Assembly (NCBI RefSeq): GCF_003148805.1
Contig: NZ_QGGX01000003.1
Coordinates: forward strand, 310,001-374,000
Length of the DNA stretch: 64,000 nt
Source of the DNA: Aminobacter sp. AP02
Lineage (GTDB): Bacteria > Pseudomonadota > Alphaproteobacteria > Rhizobiales > Rhizobiaceae
Direction: 5' to 3'
Every line of letters starts with the position of its first letter. The stretch's first letter is position 1. This document shows, in pieces, positions 2,235-16,780 of the stretch. A model generated the notes under the pieces. It was not told the DNA's origin and ran no database searches. It saw only the letters and a program-made list of their open reading frames with translations. A program made the translations under genes and the position numbers.

Positions 2235-2447
2235 CTAGCTTCTGCCGATGCGTTGCTTGGCCGAAACCCGACCAAAGATAGCAATCAGCCCCGAAAGCGC
2301 AGTGATCGCCTGCAACACCGTATCGGTCAACGTGGGACCGTCGATGCCGTCCACGGGGATGCCAGAAAGACCGGCCACGCCCAACAGCATCGTTACGACA
2401 GATGCCCAGATGGTGCGCGAAAGGTACCAAGGTTTCAGGTTCAACAT
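2235..2447 (-). CDS. Small two-helix membrane protein, holin-like, at end of GTA cluster
   Basis: A 70-residue protein with two predicted membrane helices, about residues 14-30 (WASVVTMLLGVAGLSGI) and 44-60 (LQAITALSGLIAIFG), joined by a short acidic loop and ending in a basic tail (AKQRIGRS). It begins 36 bp after the megatron gene stop, on the same strand, behind a good ribosome site (GGAT/AGAG before ATG). Size and topology fit a small phage holin or holin-like protein, and similar proteins follow tail genes in phages of alphaproteobacteria. In Rhodobacter capsulatus the GTA lysis genes lie elsewhere, so a role in lysis is inference. It might be only an accessory membrane protein. Confidence 0.6.
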   Translation of the reverse strand: MLNLKPWYLSRTIWASVVTMLLGVAGLSGIPVDGIDGPTLTDTVLQAITALSGLIAIFGRVSAKQRIGRS

Positions 2448-2483
2448 TCTCTGATCCTTTCCGGTTAAAAGACCTGACCGACT

Positions 2484-5400
2484 TCACGCCATGCCAATTC
2501 GGCGCGAAACCGGGATGCCCCAGCCGACCGCAACGCTCAGCTGGCGAACGGTGATGTCGACAGCAGCCGGGAGCGCGCCGAAATCAGCAGCGATGTCGGC
2601 CGCCGCATAGATCCAGGCCGGCGTCGAAACCGTCGTCGACCGAACGACAGGTCCGCCCACGGAGGCTATGTCGATGCGATACTCTTCACGCTCCTCACCA
2701 AGCGGAACGTCACTCGATTCCCAGCTGTCGGCGTCAATGCGAGCGCGCCTGATCCAAGAGAGAGCCAGATCATTACCCGCAGTCAGTCGTCCCTGCAGAT
2801 GCGCGGGAGAAAGCGGGGTCAACGCTCGTCTGCCGCCGGCTTCCCGGTGCGCCGAAAAGCTCGCAATTGAAAAGTCACCGTCCAGTGGGCCGACGCGCCA
2901 GTTGAGCAACAGCCCCACCTCGCCAGCCAACAGACCAGCGGGCACGACTCCCGCGTCGAGGACAACGAAAGAAGAGCCGATGGGTGCGCCAGAGGAAGCC
3001 GCGTCGCCAGTGCCGAACTGCCCGCGCAAGAGGCCGCTCAATCGCCAGATCCTGGGCGCGGTCTCTTGCGCCCTCTCGAACTGGAGCACCTCCCATGCGC
3101 CACCGGCGGACCGCACCGCGCCGAAGTTTGCACCGTTGAGTAGCTGCAGGCGACTGACGCTGGCCAGTTCGCCTTCGTAAAGCTCGACCGTCACCACTGC
3201 AGCGTGGTCAATCCTGCCTTCTCGGCCAGGCGAAAGCGCGGCCGTCAGACTGCCCATCTCCGCACGGCGACCGACCGATCCTCGCAACGCAAAGCCGGTA
3301 TCCTCGGGCGAAACGAACAGCGCCTGGCTCTTCCAAGGCTGCTGGGTCACCGCGACCCTGAAATGATCATGTGGCAGCACTGATCCGCCCGCCATCATCG
3401 GCAGATCGAGAAAAACCGCATGTGGCTGCCCGACGACGATCGGCGGCAAAGGATCCACATCGGGGCTGGAAGAACTCCAGGGCGCAGGAACCACACGGGA
3501 CAGCTGGCGAGCCGTCACTTTTCGCACCAGTCCCTGCTCGATCTCGGTCACCAGGAATTCCGAGCGGCTGCCCGACGCCGGCACCTTGACGATGCTGCCT
3601 GGCGCGATGTCGGCGCGCGGCTCGGCAAGGGCGAAGCTCAGGCGCTCCCGCTCTTGCCAGACCCTGCGCATCCAGTCTTCGGCCAGGGCGTTCGCCTGCC
3701 CCGCCTCCAGCATTCCAGGGAACGAGATCACGTGTTGCCGGCTTGTGGCCGCGGCGAACCTCGTGCTCCTGGCCAATGCCGACTGATAGTCAGCGACCGG
3801 ATCGCCATATCTGACCAAGGTCTCAGCCGGCAAATCATGATCGGGCGTGCGAACGGTCTCGACCACAGCGCTTGCACCGTCGAAAGCCAGTTCGGTCAGT
3901 TCGACGGCCACATCCTTCGATGCAGCAGCTTGCCTGAACACCAGCCCAATCGTTTCCTGACTGACCGACAGGCCGAACAGATCGACGAGCGGTTCGAGCG
4001 CAGCTCTTGCCGAGGTCGGATCGGAGATGACGTAACCACTGACCGTGCCTTCGACACCGGTCACGTCAGCCGCCGGCAGGCCGTGATCTGCCAGTATTTC
4101 GTTTACGAGGTCGGAAACTGTCGGGCCGGCAAACCTGCCATTCAACCAGTGGCCTAGATACCAGGCGTCGCCGTCCGACCAAACCTTCGATTGCAATGGA
4201 AAGGCTGGATAGGGTCGCGCGTCCCACGCCCAGACATAGCTGCGCGCCACGTCGATCATGCGCCCGCCATAGATCGGCGACAGGGGATTGTCTGCGCCAT
4301 TGAAGCCGGCAGCCGTCGAATCCCAATGTTTGACATGCGCTTCCAGCAAGCGTCGCTGCGCGATATCCGACCGACCGCCATTGGAGAAATGCGGTGCTGC
4401 ACTCTCGGACGATTTGATGTCGGGAAACATGTTGGGTTGGTTCGGCCCCTTGTCCACGGCAGGGCATCCGAGTTCGGTGAACCATATTGGCTTGCTACGG
4501 GGCACCCAGGCCGTGGATGCCGCGAGCTCTACTCCAGATCGACGATTATGGTGCGGGTTGCCCCACCAGCCGACAAGGTCCTTGTAGCGGAAGACCCAAG
4601 GCTTGCCATGGGCACCGTCGGTGATCGGAGCTCTCGACCGAGCTAGCCGATCTGCCAAGCTGGCATAATACCAATCAAAGCCCTCGCCACCGGCGACCGC
4701 TGCGGCAAGACCTCTGGCATCGTATGGCGACGCAAACCCATCCGGATTGCCACCCGCATAATCCTTGTCGCGCCAGTCCGACAGGGGCATGTAGTTGTCG
4801 ATGCCGATGGCATCGATTGCAGGATGCGCCCAAAGCTCGTCGAGATGGAAATAGACATCGCCGCTTCCATCGCCGGGTTGATAGCCGAAATACTCGCTCC
4901 AATCGGCGCCATAAGTGATACGGCACGCCGGGCCAAGCAACGTGCGAACGTCAGCCGCCAAGGCGCAAAGCGTCTCAACGAACGGGAACGCATCGGCACC
5001 GTCGCGGAGAGTGGTCAGGCCGCGCAACTCGGTTCCAACCAGGAAGGCATCGACACCCCCGGCAGCCATCGCCAAATGCGCATAGTGCAATATGAAGCGT
5101 CGGTAGCCCCAGTCGTCGGGGCTACCTGTAAAGCTGATGCCGTCTCCTGCGTTGGCAAACTGGGTCCGCAGTGCCAAACCGCAAAAAGCGTCGACCTGGC
5201 TCCTTGCCGCTGCCGTGCGGTCAGCAGTACCGGCGAGCCGCGCCGCTGGCATGCAGGTTATGCGCCCTCGCCAAGGATAGCTCGCCTGACTGGTGCCGCC
5301 GTGAGGATCGGGCAAGCTGTTTGCCTTCGGAACATCCATCATGATGAACGGGTAAAGCGTCACCTTCAGGCCGCGCGCCTTGATCTCGGCAATCGCCTCC

Positions 5401-6389
5401 TTGAGGCTTTTGTCGGAGGGCGTGCCACCGTAGGCAGGACCTCCATCATGCGTCGAAACCAGCATTGCATTCGGTCGGGTCACGCCTGACACGCGCCAGG
5501 CCGGCGACAATCCAGCAGTCGAGGCGTTGGTCACCGCCGGCCTCAACCGGCATTGCCCGGCCCTCAGATCGTTGCCGAACCAGGTCGCCACCAGTGCCAC
5601 GTTCTCGAGATTCGGACAGATCATCTGCAACTCGTCGAGCGAAGCCACAATGTCGGTACCGGCGTAGAGCACGTGGCGATTGAGCGCCTCTGTATCCCCT
5701 GGTCGCTTCTGCCGCGTGACAAGACTGGTCGACAGGCCATACTCCGTCGCGCCGGGGATCAGCGTGATCGCACGGATATGCTTGCGCAGCTCGCCGATCG
5801 GCCGGATCACCTCGAACTGCATTTGCGGAATACGGTTGCCGTGTTCGCCGATGTCGAGGTTTTCGACCACCACATAAGCAACGCCACGATAGGCTGGCGC
5901 ATTGCCCGTGCCCTGCTTGGCCGCGATCAGCGGATCGACGGCCTGCCCCTCGGTGCCGCGATGGACGCGCAGGTCGATCGTCTCGCGATCGACCTCGCGC
6001 CCATCCGCCCACACACGCCTGATGCCTGCGATCTCGCCTTCGCACAGCGCAAAGGCAGCATTTCCATAATAAGCGTACTCAGTTACCTTCGGGCCAAGCT
6101 TGCCCTGCCGCCGGGCCGACCGCGTCTCCTTGAAACGCGTCGCCCAGATCAGCGTCCCGCCGACACGTGCCGTACCGTAGATCCTCGGCAGCGAGGCACC
6201 TTCTTCGGCGGTGAAAGGCCGCGCAGCCGTAAGCCGTGGTCCCTCGATCCTTCTGGTGCTGTTGATCAGGGCGCGGTCGAGGGCATAGCCGGCCAGTGCA
6301 CCGGCAGCGGTGCCGATGGTGCTGCCGATGGGCCCAAGCATGCCACCGAGAAATGCCCCGGCAGCCTGCAACAGAATGGTCGCCATCAA
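2484..6389 (-). CDS. GTA megatron: baseplate/host-specificity protein (gp15)
   Basis: A 1301-residue tail-tip protein, close in length to RcGTA gp15 (about 1300). The N-terminus has a glycine-rich hydrophobic stretch (FLGGMLGPIGSTIGTAAGALAGYALD). A TIM-barrel glycoside-hydrolase-like domain occupies roughly 400-730, with DAIGIDNYMPLSDWRD and FTELGCPAVDKGPNQPNMF typical of the GTA TIM-barrel family. A phage tail-3 type domain follows at about 790-960 (VNEILADHGL, ALEPLVDLFGLSV), and a C-terminal receptor-binding region ends the protein. It sits at the tip of the tail and contacts the recipient cell. It is the last large gene of the cluster, 12 bp after the peptidase gene. The frame is intact throughout, which argues against decay. 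Confidence 0.92.
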   Translation of the reverse strand: MMATILLQAAGAFLGGMLGPIGSTIGTAAGALAGYALDRALINSTRRIEGPRLTAARPFTAEEGASLPRIYGTARVGGTLIWATRFKETRSARRQGKLGPKVTEYAYYGNAAFALCEGEIAGIRRVWADGREVDRETIDLRVHRGTEGQAVDPLIAAKQGTGNAPAYRGVAYVVVENLDIGEHGNRIPQMQFEVIRPIGELRKHIRAITLIPGATEYGLSTSLVTRQKRPGDTEALNRHVLYAGTDIVASLDELQMICPNLENVALVATWFGNDLRAGQCRLRPAVTNASTAGLSPAWRVSGVTRPNAMLVSTHDGGPAYGGTPSDKSLKEAIAEIKARGLKVTLYPFIMMDVPKANSLPDPHGGTSQASYPWRGRITCMPAARLAGTADRTAAARSQVDAFCGLALRTQFANAGDGISFTGSPDDWGYRRFILHYAHLAMAAGGVDAFLVGTELRGLTTLRDGADAFPFVETLCALAADVRTLLGPACRITYGADWSEYFGYQPGDGSGDVYFHLDELWAHPAIDAIGIDNYMPLSDWRDKDYAGGNPDGFASPYDARGLAAAVAGGEGFDWYYASLADRLARSRAPITDGAHGKPWVFRYKDLVGWWGNPHHNRRSGVELAASTAWVPRSKPIWFTELGCPAVDKGPNQPNMFPDIKSSESAAPHFSNGGRSDIAQRRLLEAHVKHWDSTAAGFNGADNPLSPIYGGRMIDVARSYVWAWDARPYPAFPLQSKVWSDGDAWYLGHWLNGRFAGPTVSDLVNEILADHGLPAADVTGVEGTVSGYVISDPTSARAALEPLVDLFGLSVSQETIGLVFRQAAASKDVAVELTELAFDGASAVVETVRTPDHDLPAETLVRYGDPVADYQSALARSTRFAAATSRQHVISFPGMLEAGQANALAEDWMRRVWQERERLSFALAEPRADIAPGSIVKVPASGSRSEFLVTEIEQGLVRKVTARQLSRVVPAPWSSSSPDVDPLPPIVVGQPHAVFLDLPMMAGGSVLPHDHFRVAVTQQPWKSQALFVSPEDTGFALRGSVGRRAEMGSLTAALSPGREGRIDHAAVVTVELYEGELASVSRLQLLNGANFGAVRSAGGAWEVLQFERAQETAPRIWRLSGLLRGQFGTGDAASSGAPIGSSFVVLDAGVVPAGLLAGEVGLLLNWRVGPLDGDFSIASFSAHREAGGRRALTPLSPAHLQGRLTAGNDLALSWIRRARIDADSWESSDVPLGEEREEYRIDIASVGGPVVRSTTVSTPAWIYAAADIAADFGALPAAVDITVRQLSVAVGWGIPVSRRIGMA

Positions 6390-6401
6390 CGGTCTCCGGG
6401 A

Positions 6402-6848
6402 TCAGGAATGCTCTGGGTTTGGAAAGGCGAAGGCAGCCGCGATACGTCTGCGCCATTGCGGCACGAGCCGGGTCAGCGTCACACCGTTGTCCTGATAGGC
6501 ATGCACGAAACAGTCCGGCTCGGTCAGGATCGCTGCGTGTTTCGCCGGCAAATGCGGTCGCCAGCGAAACACTATGAGGTCGCCGGCGGCCATTGATGCA
6601 ACCGTTTTCTCCGACAAATGCCTTCGCAATCCGTCCAGCAGGCGCTCCTGTTGAGTGGCTTCGGCCCAATCGGGTGCATAAGGCCCCGGTTGCTCCATTT
6701 CGTGGCTATAAATTTCACGCCAGACGCCAAGTACCAACCCAAGGCAATCGCAGGCCACACCCTTGCGGCTGCCTTGGTGACGGTAAGGTGTGCCGACCCA
6801 CTCCAGCGCCTCTGCCACGACGGACGCAGCAATGTGTTGATCGTTCAT
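6402..6848 (-). CDS. GTA NlpC/P60-family cell wall peptidase (gp14)
   Basis: A 148-residue NlpC/P60 hydrolase of the type found in phage and GTA tail tips. The catalytic Cys is C35 in ACDCLGLV, after the family motif GTPYRHQGSRKG; the catalytic His is H104 in AKHAAILTE. It probably cuts peptidoglycan peptides to help the tail cross the wall of the recipient. Its ATG overlaps the stop of gp13 (ATGA, 6845-6848). Length matches the RcGTA counterpart. It is confidently a member of this family; the exact bond cut is not shown by sequence. Confidence 0.92.
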   Translation of the reverse strand: MNDQHIAASVVAEALEWVGTPYRHQGSRKGVACDCLGLVLGVWREIYSHEMEQPGPYAPDWAEATQQERLLDGLRRHLSEKTVASMAAGDLIVFRWRPHLPAKHAAILTEPDCFVHAYQDNGVTLTRLVPQWRRRIAAAFAFPNPEHS

Positions 6849-7732
6849 GGAACGATCGGCCGACCGTCGAACACGCCGCCTTCCGTGACATAGGAGTAGC
6901 CGGCGTCATTGCCAGGAAGATGCGGAAAGCCCCGAAAATTCAGAGCATTGGCGAACTTCGCCTTGCAGGTCGAGAACGACTTGTCGCAACCGGCGCGGAC
7001 GGAAAAGGCATCGCCTGCCGTGATCGCTGCTCCCGCGTTCGGCGCAATGATGACCGTCACTCCAGAAGCCTCCCGGCGGTGCGCGACGATACGTTCGCCG
7101 CGACCGCTCCTCGGCCCGGTGGTCCAGGTGAGCGTGCCATGTGTAAACCATCCCGATTTGAAGCTGCCGAGGCCCGACACGGACAGCATATCGGGCTCGG
7201 AAAAGGCCGTTACCTTGCCGCTGCCGGAAAACTGCGCCTGGTTCAGCATCACGCCACATCTAGCATCGCCAAGTTCGGCGTCGCAGGCGCGATTGACATA
7301 GCGCCCTCTCGGCTGGTCGAGCGCATGCGTGGCACTTTCCAGCTCGGCCACGAACCGCTGGTCGCTGCGGGTAATCTTGCCAATGGACGCGGTCCGTAGC
7401 AGGACAAATTGCTCAGGCGCCATCCAGTTGACAAGGAAGGTCTCCACCTTGGCATTGTCGTAAAGCCCGGCGGCAATATCGGAGTCGCGAATGCGCTCGG
7501 ACGAAAGCGCGCCTTCGACATCGACAGTATCGACCGCGAGGCCGAGCGAGCTGCGCGCCTCACTTGCGGCGAAGCCCGCTTCCGGCTCGAACATCGTGCC
7601 ATCGAACACCAGCGGACGATCATGGTCGGTAAAGCCGCTCACCGCACCGTCCGCACGTGTCAGTCGCCAGCAGTGGCATATACTGGTCACGGCACGGCCG
7701 AGACGGTCAGTCAGCGCGGCGGGCATCGTCAC
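6845..7732 (-). CDS. GTA hub protein (gp13, DUF2163 family)
   Basis: A 295-residue baseplate hub protein of the family often annotated as phage conserved hypothetical BR0599 (DUF2163). Recognisable pieces are FTDHDRPLVFDG near 35, WMAPEQFVLLR near 97, and a cysteine-containing C-terminal region with CDAELGDARCG and AGCDKSFSTC followed by NFRGFPHLPG. The four cysteines in these motifs are conserved in the family and in RcGTA are thought to hold an iron-sulfur cluster. It overlaps gp12 by ATGA (7729-7732) and gp14 by ATGA, consistent with coupled translation in one tail-tip block. Confidence 0.9.
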   Translation of the reverse strand: MTMPAALTDRLGRAVTSICHCWRLTRADGAVSGFTDHDRPLVFDGTMFEPEAGFAASEARSSLGLAVDTVDVEGALSSERIRDSDIAAGLYDNAKVETFLVNWMAPEQFVLLRTASIGKITRSDQRFVAELESATHALDQPRGRYVNRACDAELGDARCGVMLNQAQFSGSGKVTAFSEPDMLSVSGLGSFKSGWFTHGTLTWTTGPRSGRGERIVAHRREASGVTVIIAPNAGAAITAGDAFSVRAGCDKSFSTCKAKFANALNFRGFPHLPGNDAGYSYVTEGGVFDGRPIVP

Positions 7733-8376
7733 AGGCGCACCTCCACGAGAGGAATGGATGGGATCTGCCCAGCCTTGAAGGCGGTTAGGCTGAGGGACAG
7801 CCGCTCGACATCGAAACGCACGGGCACATGGAATTCAAAACCTGCCGTCACCCGCGCACCCATGGCGGGAATCGAACCGGCCGCAAAAACCACCTCGCCG
7901 GTCGCGCCATCAAATGAGAACGATGCCGATGACAGTGCGGCGCCGGCCACCGCTATCCGCAGACTGGTCACCACCGGTCTGGAAATCAGGCGCTTGTACG
8001 CATTGGCACCGGCGCCATAGGTCTTGATCAGGGAAAATCGCGTTTTGATCCCGTCGCCCGTCCCCAAAACCTGATCCAGCATGTCGGGCGCCTCGCTCGG
8101 CCGGCAGGACTTCATGTCGAACGGGTCGCGGAACCTGAAGGCGTGGAGTGAACCGCGCCGCGCTTCGAAAAACGCCAGGACATCGTGAAGATCGTCCAGC
8201 GATTTCACACCGGTTCCAGCGTCATAATAGTGCCGTGACTGGGAAAAGCGCAGGTTGCGTTTCTCCCGTCCCGAGGTCAGCGACACGATCTCGTTGCGTC
8301 GCTCAGGCCCGCCCGTCGCGCCGAACGAGACGGCGAGCGGAAAGACCTCGTCATGGAAACTGGCCAGTTCGGTCAC
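7729..8376 (-). CDS. GTA distal tail protein (gp12, DUF2460 family)
   Basis: A 215-residue distal-tail (Dit-like) protein of the TIGR02217/DUF2460 family. Characteristic segments are FHDEVFPLAVSFGATGGPER at the N-terminus, SRHYYDAGTGVKSLDDLHDV near 48 and FRFRDPFDMKSC near 81. It would form the ring that joins the tail tube to the hub. It starts 9 bp after the tape measure gene and overlaps gp13 by four bases. Confidence 0.92.
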   Translation of the reverse strand: MTELASFHDEVFPLAVSFGATGGPERRNEIVSLTSGREKRNLRFSQSRHYYDAGTGVKSLDDLHDVLAFFEARRGSLHAFRFRDPFDMKSCRPSEAPDMLDQVLGTGDGIKTRFSLIKTYGAGANAYKRLISRPVVTSLRIAVAGAALSSASFSFDGATGEVVFAAGSIPAMGARVTAGFEFHVPVRFDVERLSLSLTAFKAGQIPSIPLVEVRL

Positions 8377-8385
8377 TACCCCTCC

Positions 8386-8961
8386 TCAAAATGTTCGTGC
8401 GCCACGCGACACCGCGCGTGCCAGCATTCCGGTGATTTGCGCTTCGGACTTGCGGAACGACGCCGCGTCCTGAGCGGTCACGTTGAACACCACATTGACG
8501 GAGCCACCACCGCCGGGTGCCGCAACGCCCAAGGCGCCATCAGCACCCCGGCGCAGGGGCAGGATCGCTTCGGCGCCGGCCTCGCCCATCAAGCCAAGGT
8601 TCTTGCCGTGCGGGAAATAGGTCGGCGACGACACCACGCCGCCGGATGCGAACGGCACCACGCCGCCCGTCACGCCACCCTTGGCGAAGGGCAGCGCGTT
8701 CTGCAGGCCCTGCATCAAGCCCTGGAAGAGTGATCCGCCCAGCGACTGAAGCGGCTTGAGCCCTTGCCCCAGCGCCATGCCGGCGATGTTCATTCCTAGT
8801 CCTCTCAGCACGTCCTCGAGTTCGCGGCCACCTACAGTCGCCATCTTCAGCGCGCTGGTGAGATGGGCGCCGAAAGTATCGGCCCGTTTTTCCAGCGACT
8901 TCAGCGTCGCAACGAATGCGCTGTCGTCCGCCTCGATCTTGACGTTCACTACCTCAACCAA
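8386..8961 (-). CDS. GTA tape measure protein (gp11)
   Basis: A 191-residue tail tape measure protein. It has an N-terminal helical stretch (VNVKIEADDSAFVATLKSLE), a glycine-rich middle (GGVTGGVVPFASGGVVSSPTYFPHG) with the family motif LMGEAGAEAILPLRR near 127, and a C-terminal helix. The length is short, as in RcGTA (about 220 residues). Tail length usually scales with tape measure length, so the sequence predicts a short siphovirus-type tail. The start overlaps the chaperone gene by 8 bp. Confidence 0.9.
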   Translation of the reverse strand: MVEVVNVKIEADDSAFVATLKSLEKRADTFGAHLTSALKMATVGGRELEDVLRGLGMNIAGMALGQGLKPLQSLGGSLFQGLMQGLQNALPFAKGGVTGGVVPFASGGVVSSPTYFPHGKNLGLMGEAGAEAILPLRRGADGALGVAAPGGGGSVNVVFNVTAQDAASFRKSEAQITGMLARAVSRGARTF

Positions 8962-9136
8962 ATTGGATCTCCGCCTGATCGGGAAAGAGTTTCATCAGCT
9001 CAGCAAGTTGCGCCTTGCCGGGAGCTTCGCCCTTGGCTGAGCCAAAGTAGCTCACGGCTTTTTCGAATTCGCGCGGCGTCATTGCCCAGAAATCCCTCGG
9101 CGAAAGCCGCAGCAGGCCGAACCCGGCAGCCATCAC
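8954..9136 (-). CDS. GTA tail assembly chaperone, second part (TIGR02216-like, gp10.1)
   Basis: A 60-residue protein if read from the GTG at 9136 or the ATG next to it. LRLSPRDFWAMTPREFEKAV is the hallmark of the TIGR02216 tail chaperone family. The same frame stays open upstream and encodes EFPWDSV directly before the GTG, which resembles the usual start of the family (FPWDxV), yet no ATG, GTG or TTG precedes it. The product may therefore be made partly by a -1 frameshift from gp10 (see the site at 9178-9186), as for the G/GT chaperones of lambda-like phages. A GGGA seven bases before the ATG could also allow independent initiation. Confidence 0.8.
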   Translation of the reverse strand: MMAAGFGLLRLSPRDFWAMTPREFEKAVSYFGSAKGEAPGKAQLAELMKLFPDQAEIQFG

Positions 9137-9177
9137 GCTGTCCCAGGGGAATTCCGCGCTGGTGCCTGCTGCGGCGA

Positions 9178-9186
9178 CTAAGGGTT
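9178..9186 (-). other. Possible -1 ribosomal frameshift site at the gp10 stop codon
   Basis: Reading the minus strand, gp10 ends AAC CCT TAG. If the Pro-tRNA on CCT slips back one base it re-pairs with CCC, and translation continues as TTA GTC GCC GCA into the open frame of the second chaperone, giving a fused product of about 188 residues. The stop codon in the A site would favour a pause. The site is not a classical XXXYYYZ heptamer. This is inference from frame continuity and from known tail chaperone biology. Confidence 0.3.
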
Positions 9187-9519
9187 TTGGCCGTCCTCCG
9201 CCGTGGGCGAGGAACCGAAGGTCGTGGTCAACAGGTCCGCAACGATCGCGGCGAAACCTGCGACACCGCCTTCAGCGCGCATTTCGCCCACTTCGTCGTC
9301 GGAGAGTTCATGTCCGGCGCCGCGCAAGCCAGCGCCAATGACACGGATCATGTCGGTAGCCGACAGACGCCCGCTCGAAAACCGTTCCACCAGTGCCGCA
9401 AGATCGGCGGCGGCATAGCTCGCTTCAAGCTCCGCCAGGGCCCCCAATGTCAGGCAAAGCCGATGGCTCTTTCCGTCCAGTTCGGCCGCAATCTCGCCGC
9501 GTCGCCTGTTCGCCGTCAT
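9178..9519 (-). CDS. GTA gp10, tail assembly chaperone first part (Phage_TAC_11-like)
   Basis: A 113-residue protein of the GTA gp10 family. The start NRRRGEIAAELDGKSHRLCL, followed by LGALAELEASYAAADLAALVERF and the helical segment MIRVIGAGLRGAGHELSDDEV, is typical. Such proteins act as tail assembly chaperones that coat the tape measure protein while the tail tube forms. Its ATG overlaps the gp9 stop (ATGA, 9516-9519). The next gene lies in the -1 frame and is open across the stop, which suggests a frameshift relationship. Confidence 0.87.
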   Translation of the reverse strand: MTANRRRGEIAAELDGKSHRLCLTLGALAELEASYAAADLAALVERFSSGRLSATDMIRVIGAGLRGAGHELSDDEVGEMRAEGGVAGFAAIVADLLTTTFGSSPTAEDGQNP

Positions 9520-9932
9520 CGCGTCACCGTGAAGCCAATGACGCCGGCGGATTCGAGCGCCACCTCGAAGGCCACCTCGCCATCATGATTGCCGGTGTAT
9601 TCAAGAGCGGTGATCTGGAACGGCCCGTCGACGACGCCGAAATCGGGGACAGCGAGCTGCCACCTCAGAATTTCGCCGCCAAAGAAGCAACTGCGCATCC
9701 TGGCGTCGGATTGCTGATCCTTGAAGATGCCGGACCCGCTCACTGCCGCCCGCTGCACCCCGGTTCCGGCCAACAGCTCGCGCCAGCGTCCCGCGGACTC
9801 CGCATCGGTAATGTCGACGGTCTCGCTGTTGAAGGCAATGCGCTTGGTGCGCAGACCCGCAACCGTCACGAAGCTGCCCAGACCGTTGATGTCGATCTTG
9901 AGCAGAAGGTCCTTGCCCTTCTGTGCGACCAT
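9516..9932 (-). CDS. GTA major tail tube protein (gp9)
   Basis: A 138-residue major tail protein of the TP901-1 type. The N-terminus AQKGKDLLLKIDINGLGSF, the segment TVAGLRTKRIAFNSETVDIT near 22 and the C-terminal strand pair (FQITALEYTGNHDGEVAFEVALESAG) are family features. It polymerises into the tail tube. A clear ribosome site (CAGGAGACC) lies before the ATG at 9932, in the 49-bp gap after gp8. Confidence 0.92.
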   Translation of the reverse strand: MVAQKGKDLLLKIDINGLGSFVTVAGLRTKRIAFNSETVDITDAESAGRWRELLAGTGVQRAAVSGSGIFKDQQSDARMRSCFFGGEILRWQLAVPDFGVVDGPFQITALEYTGNHDGEVAFEVALESAGVIGFTVTR

Positions 9933-9981: not shown

Positions 9982-10395
9982 TCAGGCGCCTTTGGGCTCG
10001 GTCACCGCGCGAAAGCGCAACAGCCCGTGATGCAGCGAAAGCCTGTCATCGAAACGCGCCTCGGAAAATTCGAGCCGCATGCTCACAAGATGCTGCGTGC
10101 CGAGATTGAGCGTTGCATCGTCAAGCAGCGCACGCACGACCTCCATGATCTCCAGTGCCTCGCGCTTGCCTTGCGACTTTGACCAGACATGAACCGAAAA
10201 CAGCTGCTCGGTACCGCTCTCGGTATCCGTGCTCCAGTCATAGACGCTCGTCCGGCCGAAGGTCAGATAGGGAAAGATCACATTGGCTGGCGCCTGGTCA
10301 TGGATCTTCGGTCCGCCCAGGAGCGCCACCAGCGCTGCATTGCCGCGAAGTGTGGCAAACACCGCCTTCTGCAACTCAGCGGCCGGGGCGGTCAT
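9982..10395 (-). CDS. GTA tail terminator protein (gp8, DUF3168 family)
   Basis: A 137-residue protein of the DUF3168 family, which caps the tail tube below the head. Typical segments are LQKAVFATLRGNAALVALLG near 8, HDQAPANVIFPYLTFGRTS near 32 and the C-terminal RLEFSEARFDDRLSLHHGLLRFRA. It overlaps the 62-aa gene upstream by 20 bp. Confidence 0.88.
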   Translation of the reverse strand: MTAPAAELQKAVFATLRGNAALVALLGGPKIHDQAPANVIFPYLTFGRTSVYDWSTDTESGTEQLFSVHVWSKSQGKREALEIMEVVRALLDDATLNLGTQHLVSMRLEFSEARFDDRLSLHHGLLRFRAVTEPKGA

Positions 10396-10564
10396 CGTCT
10401 CGCTCCCTCAACCTGCGCGGATCTACCCGCCTCGGCGGTGCCGCAGCCTCCCCACCGGAAGCCTCGCCACGGTAGCTCTGTTCAACATCTTCCGCCAGTT
10501 CATGCGCCCTCCAGCGCAGCGCCCGCTTCAGCCCGTCGAGCGTCAGCTTCATCGTCACATTCAT
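10376..10564 (-). CDS. Small protein of 62 aa nested between GTA gp7 and gp8
   Basis: The ATG at 10564 overlaps the gp7 stop in the ATGA pattern seen between other genes of this cluster, and the frame ends 20 bp inside gp8. The product begins MNVTMKLTLDGLKRALRWRA, continues with an acidic helix (HELAEDVEQSYRG) and ends in a charged, arginine- and aspartate-rich tail. No domain is recognised and no RcGTA equivalent is known to me. The ATGA coupling and the amphipathic first half make a real gene more likely than chance. Since the gap between gp7 and gp8 would otherwise be about 165 bp in a cluster without spare sequence, a function in head-tail joining is plausible but unproven. Confidence 0.6.
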   Translation of the reverse strand: MNVTMKLTLDGLKRALRWRAHELAEDVEQSYRGEASGGEAAAPPRRVDPRRLRERDDDRPGR

Positions 10565-10899
10565 GCGCCTTGCTCCCTTGTGCGACAAACGATGTAGCGC
10601 TGCGTTTCATCCGGATCGTGGACAGTAATGATGTCCAGCACACGCTGGTTCCGGCGCAGCCGCATCCCGCTCTTGAGCCCGGCCCGCCATCGCATGGTGA
10701 CCCGATGCGTCGCGGTTTCGAGCGTCTGGTCCGCGCCAAACACACTTTGCGCCGACACCGGTTCGACCAACGCAAACAGTGTCGCCAGTTCGACCCAGCT
10801 TTGTGTATGGCCGCCAAGGGCGTCCGGCGTCGTCACGCATTCTTCCAGCGCAAACTCGCTGCGCAGCGCGCCAGGATCGATGAAGCTCATCCGCATCAC
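10561..10899 (-). CDS. GTA head closure/stopper protein (gp7)
   Basis: A 112-residue head-tail joining protein. FIDPGALRSEFALEE at the start, the strand VTMRWRAGLKSGMRLRRNQRVLDI and the C-terminal YIVCRTRE fit the phage head closure family (Phage_H_T_join, SPP1 gp16 type). It overlaps gp6 upstream by ATGA (10896-10899) and the 62-aa gene downstream by ATGA. Confidence 0.88.
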   Translation of the reverse strand: MMRMSFIDPGALRSEFALEECVTTPDALGGHTQSWVELATLFALVEPVSAQSVFGADQTLETATHRVTMRWRAGLKSGMRLRRNQRVLDIITVHDPDETQRYIVCRTREQGA

Positions 10900-11465
10900 A
10901 GCCTCCGCGCGCGATAGCTGGAAAGCAAGCGGTCGTACCCAGCGGGATAAGACACCGGCTGATCCTCAGGCCCGAAGCTCGTTCGAAACTCGTACCAGTG
11001 TGTCACAAGCAGCAGCATCGCCCGCTTTAGCAGGTCGGGCACTTCCGTCCCTGCCTCGCCAAAGCCGGCGCGGAAGTCGATCTCGACACCATTCATGGTG
11101 CGAAGCCGTCCGGGCGCCCGGTCGAAATGGATGCGTGCGGGCCGCGATAATGTGTCGAGCTGGTATGCGGCCGGATTGACGACTGACGCCGCACCCTCGC
11201 TGCCGAAAACCGTTACCGAAAGCACCTGCCGCACCGGGTGCCGCGCCAGCATCACGAAATTGTCTCTCGGCCACTGATCGAGCACCAATCGCCAGGTTTG
11301 GTCGATCAACGCGATGCCCGTCGTGCGCTCGACATCTTCGCGCGCGGCGCGGATCAGGCCGCTTAGCAGCCCGTCTTCGCTCGTATGACTGATACGCAAA
11401 TGCGCCTTGGCGTCGACCAGCGTCACGGGCTCCAGCGCCGGCGCGACGGTTCTGATCAGGGTCAT
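10896..11465 (-). CDS. GTA head-tail connector/adaptor protein (gp6)
   Basis: A 189-residue connector protein of the gp6-like family (TIGR02215 type). EPVTLVDAKAHLRISHTSED near the start, LIRAAREDVERTTGIALIDQTW near 37 and the C-terminal LLVTHWYEFRTSF are the standard landmarks. It forms the ring beneath the portal. It follows the capsid gene after a 102-bp spacer containing a strong hairpin, the only long gap inside the head block. Confidence 0.9.
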   Translation of the reverse strand: MTLIRTVAPALEPVTLVDAKAHLRISHTSEDGLLSGLIRAAREDVERTTGIALIDQTWRLVLDQWPRDNFVMLARHPVRQVLSVTVFGSEGAASVVNPAAYQLDTLSRPARIHFDRAPGRLRTMNGVEIDFRAGFGEAGTEVPDLLKRAMLLLVTHWYEFRTSFGPEDQPVSYPAGYDRLLSSYRARRL

Positions 11466-11493
11466 TCATCACCTGTGTCTGGGTGGAAAGGGA

Positions 11494-11523
11494 GCGGCCC
11501 CGGCGGGGAGGAACCGGGGCCGC
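11494..11523 (-). other. Intercistronic stem-loop after the capsid gene
   Basis: A perfect 10-bp GC-rich inverted repeat (GCGGCCCCGG at 11494-11503, CCGGGGCCGC at 11514-11523) with a 10-base loop lies between the capsid stop and gp6. No run of T follows on the minus strand, so it is more likely an mRNA-stabilising or attenuating hairpin than a full terminator. It would suit the high dose of capsid protein needed relative to the connector. Confidence 0.6.
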
Positions 11524-11567
11524 GACGGCACTGAGCGGCGAACGGACCCGAGGTCCGCTCAGCCGGC

Positions 11568-12824
11568 CTACGCAGTGCCGTATTTGAGCAACTTGATCGC
11601 GCTGAAGTCCTGGACGCCGCCGCCGACACGCTTGGTGGTATAGAAAAGCACGTAGGGCTTGGCGGAATAGGGATCGCGCAGCACCCGCACGCCCGTGCGG
11701 TCGACGACAAGATAGCCGCGGCCGAAATCGCCAAAGGCGATCGGGGTGGCGTTGGGCGCCGCATCCGGCATGTCCTCGGCTTCGACAAGCGGGAAGCCCA
11801 TCAGCATGGCACGCTGGCCAGGGGCCGAAGGCGGCTGCCAGAGGTAGTTGCCGTCGGCGTCCTTGAGCTTGCGGATCGATGCCTGGGTCTTGCGGTTCAT
11901 CACCCAGTTGGCGTTCTGCCGGTAGCCCGCCTTCACGGTGTAGACAGTGTCGATCAGGATGTCTGAAGGGCTCGATGCCGGCAGCGCGCCCGATACGCCA
12001 GTCACCACATAACCGATGTCGCCCCATGCCCAGCTCGCCTCGGCCACCTTGTTGTAGTCGAGGAATCCCTTGGGCTTGTTGACCCCGTTGCCATTGATGA
12101 AGGCCGTGCCTTCCTGTTCGGCGAAGGCCGTCTCGACCTCCGAGGCGATCCACTGGTCGAGATCAACGACGCTGTCTTCGAGCAACGAGGCCGTCGCCGC
12201 CGGCATGGCGTACAGTTCCATGGTCGGAAACTGCAGTTCGGCCAACGTCGGCGTGGCCGTCTGAGGTCGCGCTGCCGTCTCCGCCACCCATCCCACCGCT
12301 GGCCCTGTGACAGCGAACGGCTTTTTCAGGACTGCGGCTGAAACCTGGCGTACGGAGGCGATCGAACGCATCGGCGACAATGTCGACAGACGGCGCCCGA
12401 TTTCGGCTTCCGTCTCGTTTGGCACCAGGTAGCCGCCGTCCTGGCCGGAGCCATAAGACATCGCCTTGGTGTCGAGCGAGCGCAGCTGCCGATCGCCGCC
12501 GCTGCGTATATAGGCCTCGAATGCGTCCTTGTGTTCGCTCGGCATCGAACGACCGTCGCGTCCAAGTGCCGGCCGCAGCCGCTTCAGCGAAAGACCGTCG
12601 AGCGTCCTTTTTTGTTCGTCGAGCGCGCGCGAAATGCGGTCGACCTTGTCGGAGGTCACCACATCGGCGCCCAGCCTGCCTTCCAGCTGCGCCAGGCGTT
12701 CGTCGTTGCTGTCCTTGAACGCCTCGAAGGTGGTCATGAACTCGCCAAAGGCATCCTTCAGGTCGAGTGCATCGCCAGCCGCCCCTTTGATGTCGGGTGC
12801 GCGCGGCGCGTGGGTCTCATTCAT
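11568..12824 (-). CDS. GTA major capsid protein (gp5, HK97 fold)
   Basis: A 418-residue HK97-type capsid protein. Residues 1-100 form a charged helical delta/scaffold region (DLKDAFGEFMTTFEAFKDSN). The mature capsid begins near AMSYGSGQDGGYLVPNET, the usual protease-trimmed start. The rest carries family signatures such as GWVAETAARPQT, FINGNGVNKPKGFLDYN and NWVMNRKTQASIRKLKD. The ATG at 12824, overlapping the protease stop (ATGA) and preceded by AAGGAA, is preferred to the longer open frame upstream, which is only the protease gene read in another frame. Confidence 0.95.
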   Translation of the reverse strand: MNETHAPRAPDIKGAAGDALDLKDAFGEFMTTFEAFKDSNDERLAQLEGRLGADVVTSDKVDRISRALDEQKRTLDGLSLKRLRPALGRDGRSMPSEHKDAFEAYIRSGGDRQLRSLDTKAMSYGSGQDGGYLVPNETEAEIGRRLSTLSPMRSIASVRQVSAAVLKKPFAVTGPAVGWVAETAARPQTATPTLAELQFPTMELYAMPAATASLLEDSVVDLDQWIASEVETAFAEQEGTAFINGNGVNKPKGFLDYNKVAEASWAWGDIGYVVTGVSGALPASSPSDILIDTVYTVKAGYRQNANWVMNRKTQASIRKLKDADGNYLWQPPSAPGQRAMLMGFPLVEAEDMPDAAPNATPIAFGDFGRGYLVVDRTGVRVLRDPYSAKPYVLFYTTKRVGGGVQDFSAIKLLKYGTA

Positions 12825-13507
12825 ACGCTGTTTCCTTTTTGTTTGATCATGCGCGTGGCCTGCCGAATGCGTTCGGCAAGGCCGCTCTCGGATCCCCATG
12901 CGGCGTCCCGCTTGCGCACGAGGCTGGCGAACCCCTCGGCGATGACCGCCCGGGCGTCGCTCCTGGTCAGCCCCGCATCCCGCGTCAGCCAACCTTCGAA
13001 TTGTCTGGTTGTCGGCAGCATCCCCCGCCCCTTGACCGTGTCGATGCGCGCTTCGGGCAACATGGGAAAGGTCACGATGGAAATTTCCCAGAGATCAGCC
13101 TCCAGTATATGGCGCACACCGCTCGCCTGTTCCTTCCGTGCCTTCACGGCGCGAAAACCTATGGAGAGGCCGTCAAGCGCGCCGCCTCGCAAAAGGTTGT
13201 GCACGTCACGTGCGCGGGCAACGTCCTTGGCCAGCCTGCCACGAACGAACAAGCCACGGTTGTCTTCCTTCAACTCCGTCCACGTGCCGATCGGCTGATT
13301 GGGATCGTGCTGAAACAGCATCCGGATGCCCGCCGCCCCGCGCGTTCGCAGCGATTTGGCAAAGGCGCCCCGCTCGACCACATCCTTGCCGAGGTCAACA
13401 CGCCCAAACAGGCTCGCATAGCCCGAGAAGGTGCCATCGACGGCGACTTCGTCGAGCACGAGATCGATGAACTTCCGTTCGCCATTCCTCGTCGTTGCCT
13501 CATGCAT
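12821..13507 (-). CDS. GTA prohead protease (gp4, HK97 family S78)
   Basis: A 228-residue HK97-type prohead serine protease that trims the capsid delta domain. FSGYASLFGRVDLGKDVVERGAF is the typical entry. The catalytic His is H67 in LFQHDPNQPIG and the Ser is S115 in DGLSIGF. The C-terminal 80 residues form an accessory region (LTRDAGLTRSDARAVIAEGF). The start is one of two adjacent ATG codons (13507 or 13510), overlapping the DUF6107-like gene by a few bases. Translation is coupled to the capsid gene by ATGA. Confidence 0.92.
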   Translation of the reverse strand: MHEATTRNGERKFIDLVLDEVAVDGTFSGYASLFGRVDLGKDVVERGAFAKSLRTRGAAGIRMLFQHDPNQPIGTWTELKEDNRGLFVRGRLAKDVARARDVHNLLRGGALDGLSIGFRAVKARKEQASGVRHILEADLWEISIVTFPMLPEARIDTVKGRGMLPTTRQFEGWLTRDAGLTRSDARAVIAEGFASLVRKRDAAWGSESGLAERIRQATRMIKQKGNSV

Positions 13508-13856
13508 CATGAGCGCCACTCCTCTTGCGTCTTTGGTCTATCCAGCGGCCGAGGCGGTTGCCTTCGAAGGCACGCATGACAAGGCCAAGCGCCCACCACG
13601 CGCAGAGGCTTGCCGCAGCAGCCCCCATCATGGTCATCTCGGTTGGGCTGATCAGCTCTTCGATGCCGAGTTCGGCGGCTATCTTCAGACCAACCGTTCC
13701 ACCGAATACCAGCCCGCAAACCACGCCCACCGAAAAGCGGACAGCGGCCTCGCGCCGCCCTTGCGGCAAGATGTAAGCGAGCGAGATCGCCGAGCCGGCA
13801 ATCGCACCCGCGCCCTTGGCCAGCCAAAGCCAGCCGGGGTCGGACATGTACGTCAT
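13500..13856 (-). CDS. Membrane protein (DUF6107-like) inside the GTA head block (gp3.5 position)
   Basis: A 118-residue protein with three predicted membrane segments: about GAGAIAGSAISLAYIL, FSVGVVCGLVFGGTVGL and AAAASLCAWWALGLVM. It ends in a very basic tail (RRKRSGAHDA). The start at 13856 is chosen because GAAGAG lies before the ATG; a GTG at 13892 would overlap the portal stop and has no ribosome site. It resembles the family named DUF6107 in rhizobial GTA clusters and occupies the place of the small open frame between portal and protease in RcGTA. Its function is unknown. A membrane protein among head genes is odd; it could dock assembly at the membrane or act in lysis. Confidence 0.75.
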   Translation of the reverse strand: MTYMSDPGWLWLAKGAGAIAGSAISLAYILPQGRREAAVRFSVGVVCGLVFGGTVGLKIAAELGIEELISPTEMTMMGAAAASLCAWWALGLVMRAFEGNRLGRWIDQRRKRSGAHDA

Positions 13857-13884
13857 TGCTCTTCGGTCCTGTGTTTCGGATTGT

Positions 13885-15060
13885 TTAGCCACGCGGCGGG
13901 TAGCCGACGGCCTCGCGCTTTTCGTCTTCCGTCAGGAAGTTGGCCCCCTCGACCCTGGACCAAAGCGCGTCGCGCTCGCCGGCAAGGCCCTCGACCTGGT
14001 CGGCGTCGTACCAGAGCCGCAGGTCGGCTCCGAAGGCCGGCGAAAGCCAGGCCGAGAGTTCCTTTGCCGTCCGCGCCACCAGCGGCAGAACGGTAAGGCG
14101 GTAGAAGGCGCGGTTGGCCTCCTGATAGTTCGCGTAGGTGTTATCGCCAGGGATGCCGAGCAGCATCGGCGGTACGCCAAACGCAAGTGCGATGTCGCGG
14201 CTTGCCGAATGCTTGGCCTCGATGAAATCCATATCCTTGGGCGTCAGACCCATCGCTTTCCAGTCGAGCCCGCCTTCGAGCAACAGCGGTCGTCCGGCAC
14301 GGGTCGCACCGGAATAGCCCTCTTCCAGTTCGGTCTTCAGCCTGTCGAACTGCTCGTCGCTCAGATTGCCGCCATCCTTGGGCGCATAAACCAAGGCTCC
14401 GGAAGGCCGCGCCGAGTTGTCGAGCAGCGCCTTGTTCCAGCGCCCGGCCGCATTGTGCGTGTCGAGCGCGATCAAAGCCGCTTCGAGCGGCGGAAAGCCG
14501 TAGTGATCGTCGAGCGGATGGAACAGCGTCAGATGCGCCGCACCGCCCTTTTCGCCGAGCCCAAGGTCAATACGCCGCCGCACCCCGCCCTCACGATGTT
14601 CGAGCGCTGTCGGCCAACCGCTGGCATCGGCTGCCACGGCAACCCGGTCGGGCCGCAGCAGGTGCAGCTCACGCGTCCCGCCACCCGCTTCGACCAACTC
14701 GACATAGGCGTTGCCCGAAAGCAGAAGGTGCCCGTACAGCGTTTCCATGAAGCTGCCGCCTGCCTGCCGTTCGTTTGGCCGCTCGAACAGCTGGAGCAAG
14801 GCGTGATCGTCCAGTTCGCTGGCGCCTTCATAGAGCAACCAGGGTATGGCCGACGCCGTCTCCGAGATCAGGCGCACCGAGCGATGCACGATCGGATTGC
14901 GCATGAAACCCTCGCGCGCAAGTCCGGCATAATCGCGCCGGGTCCAGCGCGCCTCGCCCTGGGCATGCAAGGCGACAAAGCCCGTCGGGCCGCCGCTCTT
15001 GCGTTCAGGTACGACGCTACCCTTCCCGGTCCACCAAGACCAAGGCCAGTTCAAAGCCAT
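13885..15060 (-). CDS. GTA portal protein (gp3, HK97 portal family)
   Basis: A 391-residue portal protein. GFMRNPIVHRSVRLISETASAI near 48, LLLSGNAYVELVEAGG near 112 and AFGVPPMLLGIPGDNTYANY near 295 are canonical HK97-type portal motifs. It forms the ring through which DNA enters the head. The ATG at 15060 follows AGGAAACGAT and lies 12 bp after the large terminase gene. Confidence 0.95.
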   Translation of the reverse strand: MALNWPWSWWTGKGSVVPERKSGGPTGFVALHAQGEARWTRRDYAGLAREGFMRNPIVHRSVRLISETASAIPWLLYEGASELDDHALLQLFERPNERQAGGSFMETLYGHLLLSGNAYVELVEAGGGTRELHLLRPDRVAVAADASGWPTALEHREGGVRRRIDLGLGEKGGAAHLTLFHPLDDHYGFPPLEAALIALDTHNAAGRWNKALLDNSARPSGALVYAPKDGGNLSDEQFDRLKTELEEGYSGATRAGRPLLLEGGLDWKAMGLTPKDMDFIEAKHSASRDIALAFGVPPMLLGIPGDNTYANYQEANRAFYRLTVLPLVARTAKELSAWLSPAFGADLRLWYDADQVEGLAGERDALWSRVEGANFLTEDEKREAVGYPPRG

Positions 15061-15072
15061 ATCGTTTCCTGT

Positions 15073-16353
15073 TCAAAGAAAATCGCGGATTCGCGGTTCA
15101 GTCGACCAGTCCGGCATCAGTTCGCCGATTGCCCAGACAAGCGCGTCGACGCGATCGGGAGAGCGGCCATTCGACAGCCCATTCGGGCCGAAATCGCACA
15201 TCTCGTCTTCGAGTGCGGTAAAGCGCCCGGCATGCAGAACCTTGCCCTGCGCATAGAGTGCGGCGATCGGCTCGGCGCGCAGCCATTTCGACCGCTGCGC
15301 CCGCACCGCCTTCACCGGCGCTGCCGGATCGATGGTACGGATGACTGCCGTCACCATATCGCCCCCCTGGTTGGTCTCGGCAACGATGCAGTCGGCTTCA
15401 AGGCGGTGAAACAGCCTCACCGCCGTTCCTGCCCAGTCCTGCGGTTTCGCTGCCTGGACCGTGGCATCGGCCAGGACCACCGCCCGGCCCCCGCAATCCA
15501 GCCCGACGGCAACGATTCCGCACGCATCGGAGGTTTTTCGAGAACTTGCCGGCGGATCGACCGCCACCACGATGCGGCGCAAGTCGTTCGTCTCTGCCAC
15601 CAGGGCCGCTTCGAGAACATCGCGCGACCACAAGGCGTCGTCGCGATCCTCGATCAGTTCGCCGTCCAGTTCCTGTCGGCCCAGGACACTGCCGCCATAA
15701 CGGCCGCGGACCGCCTTCAGAAAACCTGGCGCGAGGTTGGCGCTGTTTTCGTCCGACCTCATGCGAGTCACCATGACCTCCGGATCTGCCAGCAGCCGCT
15801 TCAATAGCGGTACCGGGCGTGGCGTCGTGGTGATGATCTGCCTCGGCTTGTCGCCAAGCCTGAGCCCGAACTGCAGCATGTCGAAACAGGCCTCCGCATG
15901 TTTCCACTTCGCCAGTTCGTCGCACCACGCCGCCTCAAACTGCGGCCCACGCAAACTGTCGGGGTCTTCGGAGGAAAAAATCTGTGCGACCGCGCCGCTA
16001 TCCCAGACCAGCCTTTTGCGGCTTGGTTCAAAACGCGGCCTGTCGTGACGCGAAATCGTTGCGATCCCGGACGGGCCTTCGATCATGACCTCTCGAACGT
16101 CGGCAAGGGTTTCTCCGACCAAAGCTATCGGCGAATGCCCTCTGGTCGCAAAGGGTGAAAACCCACGCACCATGCTGTTTACCCATTCCGCTCCCAGCCG
16201 TGTCTTGCCTGCACCTCGTCCGCCGACCACCAACCATGTCGCCGGCTTCCGCCCGAGCGGGTATTGCCCTATGCGAGCGAAATGAAGCCACTCCTCATCG
16301 ATCAGCCCCGCCAATCGGCTGGGAACGTTCGTCTGCGACCAGCACCCGTGCAT
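15073..16353 (-). CDS. GTA terminase large subunit (gp2)
   Basis: A 426-residue packaging motor from the ATG at 16353. The N-terminal ATPase has a Walker A motif GGRGAGKT at about 44-51 and an acidic pair in AAWCDELAKW near 150. The C-terminal RNase H-like nuclease has IVVAVDPPAS near 265 and AETNQGGDMV near 325. It fits the Terminase_6 type seen in RcGTA. The frame is open further upstream to 16416, so the start is not certain; the chosen one overlaps gp1 by 59 bp. Confidence 0.92.
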   Translation of the reverse strand: MHGCWSQTNVPSRLAGLIDEEWLHFARIGQYPLGRKPATWLVVGGRGAGKTRLGAEWVNSMVRGFSPFATRGHSPIALVGETLADVREVMIEGPSGIATISRHDRPRFEPSRKRLVWDSGAVAQIFSSEDPDSLRGPQFEAAWCDELAKWKHAEACFDMLQFGLRLGDKPRQIITTTPRPVPLLKRLLADPEVMVTRMRSDENSANLAPGFLKAVRGRYGGSVLGRQELDGELIEDRDDALWSRDVLEAALVAETNDLRRIVVAVDPPASSRKTSDACGIVAVGLDCGGRAVVLADATVQAAKPQDWAGTAVRLFHRLEADCIVAETNQGGDMVTAVIRTIDPAAPVKAVRAQRSKWLRAEPIAALYAQGKVLHAGRFTALEDEMCDFGPNGLSNGRSPDRVDALVWAIGELMPDWSTEPRIRDFL

Positions 16354-16780
16354 AGTCTCGAGCAAGCTCGACGATGCGTCGGTCGATCCTTGCAAGCACG
16401 TCCGCCATTTCTGCATCTCTGTTCGTCTGGCTCACTTTTGCTGCGTCCGCTCCCCGCATCAGCTCGTTGATCTTTTCGACCGTCCTGATGATCGAGCCGA
16501 CCATGTCCAACTGGGCCTTGTCGAGACCGCCTTCGTTTTCCAGCCGAAGCGTCTCGACCTGTCCGACCAGGGATTCGGCCAACCGTTCCAGCCGGTCACT
16601 GAAATCTGCTGTGGCAGGTCTCATCCAGCCATCCCGGGCAACACGCCTGTCGATAGAGGACACCGCGCAACCGCTCGCCGCCGATAGAAGTTCGGCATCG
16701 ACGCGCGCACCCTCGAACAGAGCGCGCAGTGCTCGCCAGCGTTCGTCCGCTTTCGCGACCAACGAGACCTCCATATTCAT
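16295..16780 (-). CDS. GTA small terminase (gp1)
   Basis: A 161-residue protein at the promoter end of the cluster. Residues about 30-55 (AELLSAASGCAVSSIDRRVA) look like a degenerate helix-turn-helix, and the middle (65-125) is a long amphipathic helix suited to oligomerisation (SDRLERLAESLVGQVETLRL). This matches the layout of RcGTA gp1, now seen as a TerS that has lost specific DNA recognition. A good candidate promoter lies 60-90 bp upstream. The family call rests largely on position next to gp2. Confidence 0.8.
   Translation of the reverse strand: MNMEVSLVAKADERWRALRALFEGARVDAELLSAASGCAVSSIDRRVARDGWMRPATADFSDRLERLAESLVGQVETLRLENEGGLDKAQLDMVGSIIRTVEKINELMRGADAAKVSQTNRDAEMADVLARIDRRIVELARDYARVLVADERSQPIGGADR

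Follow-up and report, generated by a model that had tools for sequence, protein, structure and literature searches.

A cluster of phage-type head, packaging and tail genes lying between housekeeping genes raises the question of whether it is a resident prophage or a gene transfer agent (GTA) kept by its host, and how such an agent comes to be maintained in one lineage and lost in another. The window analysed here, a stretch of 64,000 nucleotides from Aminobacter sp. AP02 (contig NZ_QGGX01000003.1, positions 310,001 to 374,000), carries such a cluster at positions 2235-16780 on the minus strand. What the window holds is very probably an RcGTA-like gene transfer agent, domesticated by its Aminobacter-group host, and the cluster is a well-preserved example of a known GTA type. 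All genes of the RcGTA order gp1 to gp15, with a TerS-like candidate in the place of gp1, are present with open frames, as judged from the open reading frame (ORF) list, Pfam and PHROG, and the head-tail genes g2-g15 follow one another on one strand in the conserved order, just as the initial annotation had it. The ATGA coupling that it described is also real, with six four-base overlaps among the 18 junctions; seven had been listed, and six stand because the gp10/gp10.1 overlap relies on a non-start codon. The motifs that it named are all found, including the Walker A of the large terminase (TerL) at residue 65, C35 and H104 of gp14, and hub cysteines 150, 159, 249 and 256; the protease pair H67/S115 is valid if the start lies four residues later and becomes His71/Ser119 from the longer start.

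The structural proteins are homologous to those of the particle of RcGTA, the alphaproteobacterial type I GTA of Rhodobacter capsulatus. Of ten PDB searches, eight gave an RcGTA particle chain as the best match, namely those with the portal, capsid, adaptor, tail terminator, tail tube, distal tail, hub and megatron proteins; the search with TerL gave no PDB match at 1e-5, and gp14 retrieved NlpC-type hydrolases, lipoprotein spr first. Selection was assessed by pairwise Nei-Gojobori ratios of nonsynonymous to synonymous divergence (dN/dS) in five pairs among the genome holding the window (G000; 5.6 Mb, 72 contigs), G005, with which it is grouped in one genus, G006 and G004. The ratio was 0.00-0.31 in all 18 cluster ORFs covered (gp7.5 was left out), which indicates purifying selection; the values are rough, because dS often nears 1. 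It was 0.07-0.11 for terL, 0.05-0.08 for the capsid gene, 0.10-0.14 for gp15, 0.15-0.31 for orf1 and 0.00-0.17 for a 70-amino-acid (70-aa) membrane ORF; neighbouring host genes gave 0.00-0.17 (PBP1A 0.05-0.07, response regulator 0.00-0.02).

The cluster occupies one old site. The response regulator and PBP1A reported at its two ends flank it in related genomes too, and the shared flanks, together with the remnants that persist at this position where the cluster was lost, point to vertical inheritance. In a gp15 tree (88 rows of the gp15 part; 200 bootstrap trees), the full clusters of Aminobacter form one group. That the cluster is a prophage, whole or remnant, is very improbable: the genes are of phage origin and RcGTA-like inducible prophages are known in the same order (PMC11409702), but the flanks scanned (ORFs read, plus 10 flank proteins searched against Pfam) showed no integrase, repressor or replication gene, related genomes have the cluster at the same site, and the genome's real prophage, on contig C15, is very different, with an integrase, a Prim-Pol and a long tape measure protein. 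The pairing of an integrase with an attachment-site duplication bounding the genes, typical of a temperate prophage, was not found, in line with the initial annotation: the longest exact direct repeat between 1-2234 and 16781-24000 is a lone 15-mer, at 1114 and 19964, away from the cluster ends.

The activator is encoded in the same window as the cluster. A gafA operon, split in two, lies at 26451-27825 between sufE (26019-26447, plus strand, downstream) and mucR, so that the genome contains a GafA-type activator; dN/dS of its parts is 0.10-0.30. A split gafA with sufE downstream is the arrangement described for Hyphomicrobiales in PMC9638019. This operon had been overlooked, along with what the 70-aa ORF probably encodes and an extra N-terminal region of the small terminase (TerS) candidate; of the regulator and lysis genes that the initial annotation proposed to look for elsewhere in the genome, gafA was found within the window, and no GTA-linked RcGTA-type endolysin was found. 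Between gafA and mucR stands orf118, a gafA-linked ORF with 76-86% identity in the 5 other gafA-keeping congeners and 34-74%, partly in fragments, in 4 gafA-losers; its dN/dS is 0.08-0.11.

By analogy with RcGTA and with CcGTA of Caulobacter crescentus, we infer how the agent is induced, how it packages and transfers DNA, and what the membrane protein does. Under stress, a few cells would make the two-part GafA (27825-26451), which together with RNA polymerase would switch on the operon from 16780 to 2235. TerS and TerL would load host DNA into the small capsid, gp6-gp8 would close the particle and gp9-gp15 would form a short tail; the cell would then lyse, possibly aided by the 70-aa holin-like protein encoded last.

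The TerS candidate, orf1, overlaps TerL by 119 bases and was matched in 61 of the 82 related clusters with room upstream. Its AlphaFold2 model (predicted local distance difference test, pLDDT, 86.3; predicted template modelling score, pTM, 0.42) has three N-terminal helices, then a helical hairpin and a long C-terminal helix; a fold search gave no PDB match at E up to 0.001, and the best second-look rows were short helical hairpins. Published GTA TerS proteins have 92-125 aa, and RcGTA gp1 is described as having no DNA-binding domain, a lack that its authors tie to random packaging (PMC6854486). In contrast to RcGTA, the window's candidate has about 160 aa, among them an additional helical unit at the N terminus, which may bind DNA.

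The 70-aa ORF is a candidate for a part in the release of particles. It has two hydrophobic stretches by hydropathy, 27 of its 32 homologues match PHROG holin family 34682 (phrog_34682; best 1.3e-12), and it lies directly 3' of gp15 in 68 of the 74 clusters reaching far enough, being missing in L045, L046, L052, L091, L132 and L141; within the genus, it decays where the GTA is lost. By its sequence the protein is holin-like and possibly has a role in lysis. A second holin candidate is the DUF6107 protein, in which hydropathy shows about three hydrophobic segments and which matches a PHROG holin family weakly (0.0014). RcGTA uses a holin together with an endolysin (PMC13236601). However, no endolysin of that type (PF05838, Glyco_hydro_108) tied to the GTA was found: PF05838 occurs in 5 of 10 genus genomes, only one of which has a full cluster, so that it does not track the GTA and was rejected as its partner. 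The sole copy in G000, at C15:85324, belongs to the end of the prophage on that contig. This is an ordinary prophage (L150, 10122-11426, and L151, 13-18795) with integrase, Prim-Pol, terminase, portal, capsid, 795-aa tape measure protein, tail tip protein and endolysin.

Compared with known systems, the window cluster shares with RcGTA the g1-g15 order and a GafA-type activator; unlike in RcGTA, GafA is split into two genes and a holin-like gene lies inside the operon, and most congeners with the full cluster have no RcGTA-type endolysin. CcGTA has an RcGTA-like cluster and a two-gene activator, gafYZ, likewise two-part as in the window; it is described as exiting via LypABC, without holin-endolysin (PMC13236601), and no lypABC search was made for the window genome. 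Nothing sets the window cluster apart from the RcGTA-like clusters of Hyphomicrobiales, of which it is one. The Methylobacterium nodulans prophages LC1-LC5 and vB_MseS-P1 have homologous head and tail genes, but they possess phage functions and are inducible (PMC11409702). Rhodogtaviriformidae is the formal viriform family for functionally demonstrated GTAs, and its members so far come only from Rhodobacterales, as stated in PMC9662315. In the open-access PMC literature we found no publication on an Aminobacter GTA, on DUF6107 or on a fusion of terL to gp15, and the passages of the Hyphomicrobiales GTA literature consulted held no description of the 70-aa ORF or of the recurrent deletion reported below.

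Table 1. Features of the window, with positions counted from its first letter and the evidence for each assignment.
Feature	Position	Strand	Evidence
Response regulator, flank	1130-1795		Pfam scan
70-aa holin-like membrane protein, two hydrophobic segments	2235..2447	-	PHROG holin family 34682 via homologues; hydropathy
gp15, megatron with GTA TIM-barrel domain	2484..6386	-	PF13547 2e-142, PF23666; RcGTA 6tba_8A 1.1e-279
gp14, NlpC/P60 peptidase	6402..6848	-	PF00877 3.2e-7; best PDB match lipoprotein spr, not RcGTA
gp13, hub	6845..7732	-	RcGTA chain 6tba_7A 6.5e-58
gp12, distal tail protein	7729..8376	-	RcGTA Rcc01695 6tba 3.2e-65
gp11, short tape measure protein	8386..8961	-	PHROG tape measure families, best 3.1e-14
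gp10.1, tail assembly chaperone, 60-aa ORF from GTG	8954..9136	-	PF09550 1.7e-17 on longer stretch 8954-9181
gp10	9178..9519	-	PF11836 GTA-gp10 6.9e-31
gp9, tail tube	9516..9932	-	RcGTA Rcc01691 6tba 2.9e-51
gp8, tail terminator	9982..10395	-	PF11367 7.6e-31; RcGTA Rcc01690 6tba 1.4e-5
gp7.5, small ORF	10376..10564	-	order conserved; no Pfam/PHROG match
gp7, stopper / head completion	10561..10899	-	PF05521 1.5e-19
gp6, adaptor	10896..11465	-	RcGTA Rcc01688 6tba 1.4e-11
gp5, major capsid protein	11568..12824	-	PF05065 3.7e-92; RcGTA Rcc01687 6tb9 2.8e-97
gp4, prohead protease	12821..13519	-	PF04586 4.3e-36; His and Ser present
DUF6107 protein, gp3.5 slot, start codon uncertain	13500..13892	-	PF19602 7.9e-32
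gp3, portal	13885..15060	-	PF04860 2.4e-82; RcGTA portal 6tba 5.7e-118
gp2, large terminase	15073..16416	-	PF03237 1.6e-26, PF17289 3.1e-19; Walker A; AAWCDEL
orf1, candidate small terminase (gp1), about 160 aa	16298..16780	-	position 5' of TerL; no Pfam/PHROG family
PBP1A, flank	16958-19198		named from sequence; orthologues in 9/9 congeners
GafA C-terminal half (DUF6456), start inferred from sequence	26451..27251	-	PF20057 1.6e-45, match spans 26451-27395
GafA N-terminal half, DnaA-like DNA-binding domain, start uncertain	27253..27825	-	PF08299 4.5e-14
orf118, 118 aa	27893..28249	+	between gafA and mucR, gafA-linked; no Pfam match

How firmly the GTA is kept differs among relatives. In the genus comparison (10 genomes, G000-G009), five have a full cluster, defined as capsid plus full GTA_TIM (G000, G004, G005, G006 and G008); G001 has a collapsed form in which GTA_TIM is truncated and the capsid profile finds no match; and neither profile is present in G002, G003, G007 and G009, which keep only scraps at the old site, namely pieces of the membrane ORF in all four and pieces of orf1 in G007 and G009. 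DUF6456 is above cut-off in six of the ten, the five full-cluster genomes and G001, and gafA is missing between sufE and mucR in exactly the four scrap genomes; of the gafA genes, G007 retains a remnant of 29 residues and G009 some fragments. A wider co-occurrence sample covered 131 genomes of the family, which we take to be Rhizobiaceae in the GTDB sense, with the profiles GTA_TIM and DUF6456. Both were found in 94, GTA_TIM alone in 3, DUF6456 alone in 13 and neither in 21 (Fisher p 1.3e-12, not corrected for relatedness). The 13 include G085, a full cluster cut by a contig end, and so overstate the true number by at least one. Among the 11 of these 13 that were looked at (G105 and G142 were left out), G122 has TerL joined to the membrane ORF, G137, G151 and G160 retain irregular remains, and the contigs of G146 and G088 end before the site.

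Several observations weigh against a maintained GTA in the window. The RcGTA-type endolysin is absent in four of the five full-cluster congeners; G001 keeps gafA despite its collapsed cluster, and G072, G080, G090 and G161 keep DUF6456 with no GTA gene in the stretch at the site. The losses behind the genus pattern are also few: in a tree of ten flanking host proteins, G001, G002, G003 and G007 form one clade (100/100), adjoining G000 (99/99), and G009 stands apart, so that about two independent losses are indicated, one of them in the sister clade of the window lineage. The description of a domesticated, maintained GTA stands as regards RcGTA matches, low dN/dS and fixed site, but the maintenance is specific to the window's lineage, because five of the ten genus genomes, the sister clade included, have lost the cluster. 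The loss in the sister clade and the endolysin-free congeners would also fit an intact but silent GTA, whose genes are still clean because regulation or release was inactivated recently. We regard this as improbable, since purifying selection extends to 18 of 18 ORFs between species at a synonymous divergence of about 0.5-1.3 and gafA is intact.

A recurrent deletion within the GTA cluster appeared in relatives. The same in-frame deletion of about 11-13 kb is present in seven genomes of six genera (G001, G013, G017, G066, G118, G196 and G404). TerL up to D166-E167-L/A168 runs into gp15 from G641 (numbering from TTG 6389), and the joint reads W-x-D-E-(L/A)-G-C-P-A, that is, the end of the terminase Walker B is set onto a TIM-barrel strand (GCPA) of gp15. 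The fused frames are open in all seven (799 to 836 aa from the start ATG), and the two joint motifs lie 11.2-12.9 kb apart in six full clusters. The first five (G001, G013, G017, G066 and G118) were recognised by GTA_TIM matches that begin at profile position 204-209, and G196 and G404 by a search for the joint itself. That search covered 394 family genomes, with G001 and G008 outside the sample, and returned the joint in 6 and a reversed control pattern in 0; viral contigs held 0 exact matches. One hit in an order-wide search of 297 genomes (13 from the window's family), G622, has ORFs showing no GTA gene and was taken as chance. The genes orf1 and the membrane ORF are kept in six of the seven fused loci (not found in G013), and gafA in all seven genomes.

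On the gp15 tree, which includes G256, a congener of G118 with a full-length cluster, the fused form requires 7 changes, a number that also lies in the 5-95% range of the 200 bootstrap trees; it has at least six origins, should one regain in G256 be allowed. Other joints were seen as well. In G133 another in-frame TerL::gp15 joint lies near residues 206 and 455, and in G122 TerL after W-C-D is joined in frame to the membrane ORF (TerL::holin). The TerL::gp15 joints found irrespective of frame and position of the joint are in frame in six of six (G001, G013, G017, G066, G118 and G133); G196 and G404 are excluded from this count because they were found by the joint itself.

One explanation of the deletions is ordinary decay at a mutational hotspot, leaving a functionless product, and we give it an even chance. 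In each of the genera g1, g87 and g110 the fused form is found beside the full one, for which reason the deletions may be young, the TerL part of the G118/G196 pair has a dN/dS of 0.43, above the 0.07-0.11 of whole TerL in Aminobacter, and the AlphaFold2 model of the G017 chimera (mean pLDDT 78.5) is disordered at the junction, residues 156-200 scoring below 50 and the gp15 part making up most of what is predicted with high confidence. On the other hand, all seven frames are open, and the choice of this very joint is hard to ascribe to sequence similarity. Of 13 clusters tried in a joint similarity test, six were evaluable (in seven the motif or the full pair was not found), and there, of about 5000 diagonals, 266 to 4317 scored higher than the junction; four clusters each contained 2631-5159 in-frame microhomologies of at least 5 bases, yet the same one was used. 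A repeat hotspot was accordingly rejected, the joint being a poor repeat and one of thousands of such microhomologies.

It is possible, and here we are tentative, that what remains after the deletion is a mini-operon under GafA control, made up of the TerS-like protein, the TerL::gp15 chimera and the holin-like protein, and that it is kept for a function of its own. It might, for example, bring about lysis under GafA with no particles made, or interfere with phage packaging or with that of other GTAs. The seven open frames and the in-frame joints with two different partners suggest that the fused gene has a function. GafA-driven expression of the terminal holin-like gene, with the upstream frame unbroken, would fit both the in-frame rule and the TerL::holin joint, although G013 lacks that gene. 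Against a function of the fused gene stand the polymorphism within genera, the want of a usable date and the disordered predicted joint; selection for a folded hybrid domain is unsupported by the model. Of 30 gp15 fragments prepared, 29 entered the alignment, L046 being omitted. Between G118 and G196, dN/dS is 0.14 for the gp15 part and 0.06 for the membrane protein. These values, with that of the TerL part, are unusable as proof of function: the full-length G256 is as close to G118 as G196 is (response regulator dS 0.14 vs 0.27), and the two deletions may therefore be separate and young.

A single old fused allele, spread between lineages by recombination, is unlikely: the identical junction codons and the low synonymous divergence at the G118/G196 junction (0.11-0.24 vs 0.33-0.47 further on) would agree with it, but among lineages the junction divergence is the same as in full clusters (0.52-0.68; 15 fused pairs, G196 omitted), in G001, G013, G404 and G118 lineage-specific residues come as near as 3-13 codons to the junction, and the fused rows are scattered on the gp15 tree. 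Recent horizontal spread of the joint is likewise unsupported, both by synonymous divergence and by those residues.

The locus offers a clean GTA, convenient for laboratory work, outside Rhodobacter and Caulobacter, with activator and particle genes within 25 kb, and near relatives at every stage of loss that can serve as natural controls. It makes testable how Hyphomicrobiales GTAs leave the cell, given a holin-like gene in the operon and no RcGTA-type endolysin, and also how GTAs are lost, for which cheaters have been proposed (PMC10883770). If the repeated terL::gp15 deletion is confirmed, GTA loss would pass through a preferred, possibly selected, intermediate and not through random decay.

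Other irregular clusters were met in the family. A stretch of about 3.7 kb splits the protease gene in G095 (L192, 1418-5177), and one of similar length splits gp15 in G074 (L216, 12780-16419); in G063, 3.9 kb without GTA matches replaces gp10.1 to mid-gp15 (L210, 6585-10487). In G061 (L212 near 7510, near residue 470) and G110 (L213 near 7120, near residue 671), gp15 falls into two separate matches, which may reflect decay or sequencing error, and G020 has a split GTA_TIM match. More than one GTA_TIM match is present in G036, G068, G074, G082 and G162; the best (E about 1e-156) outscore the GTA copies and may be prophages or second GTA-like elements. Finally, the GTA of L132, from a record named Bacillus subtilis SK6B4, stands beside those of Pseudochrobactrum in the gp15 tree, and the record is probably misnamed or mixed.

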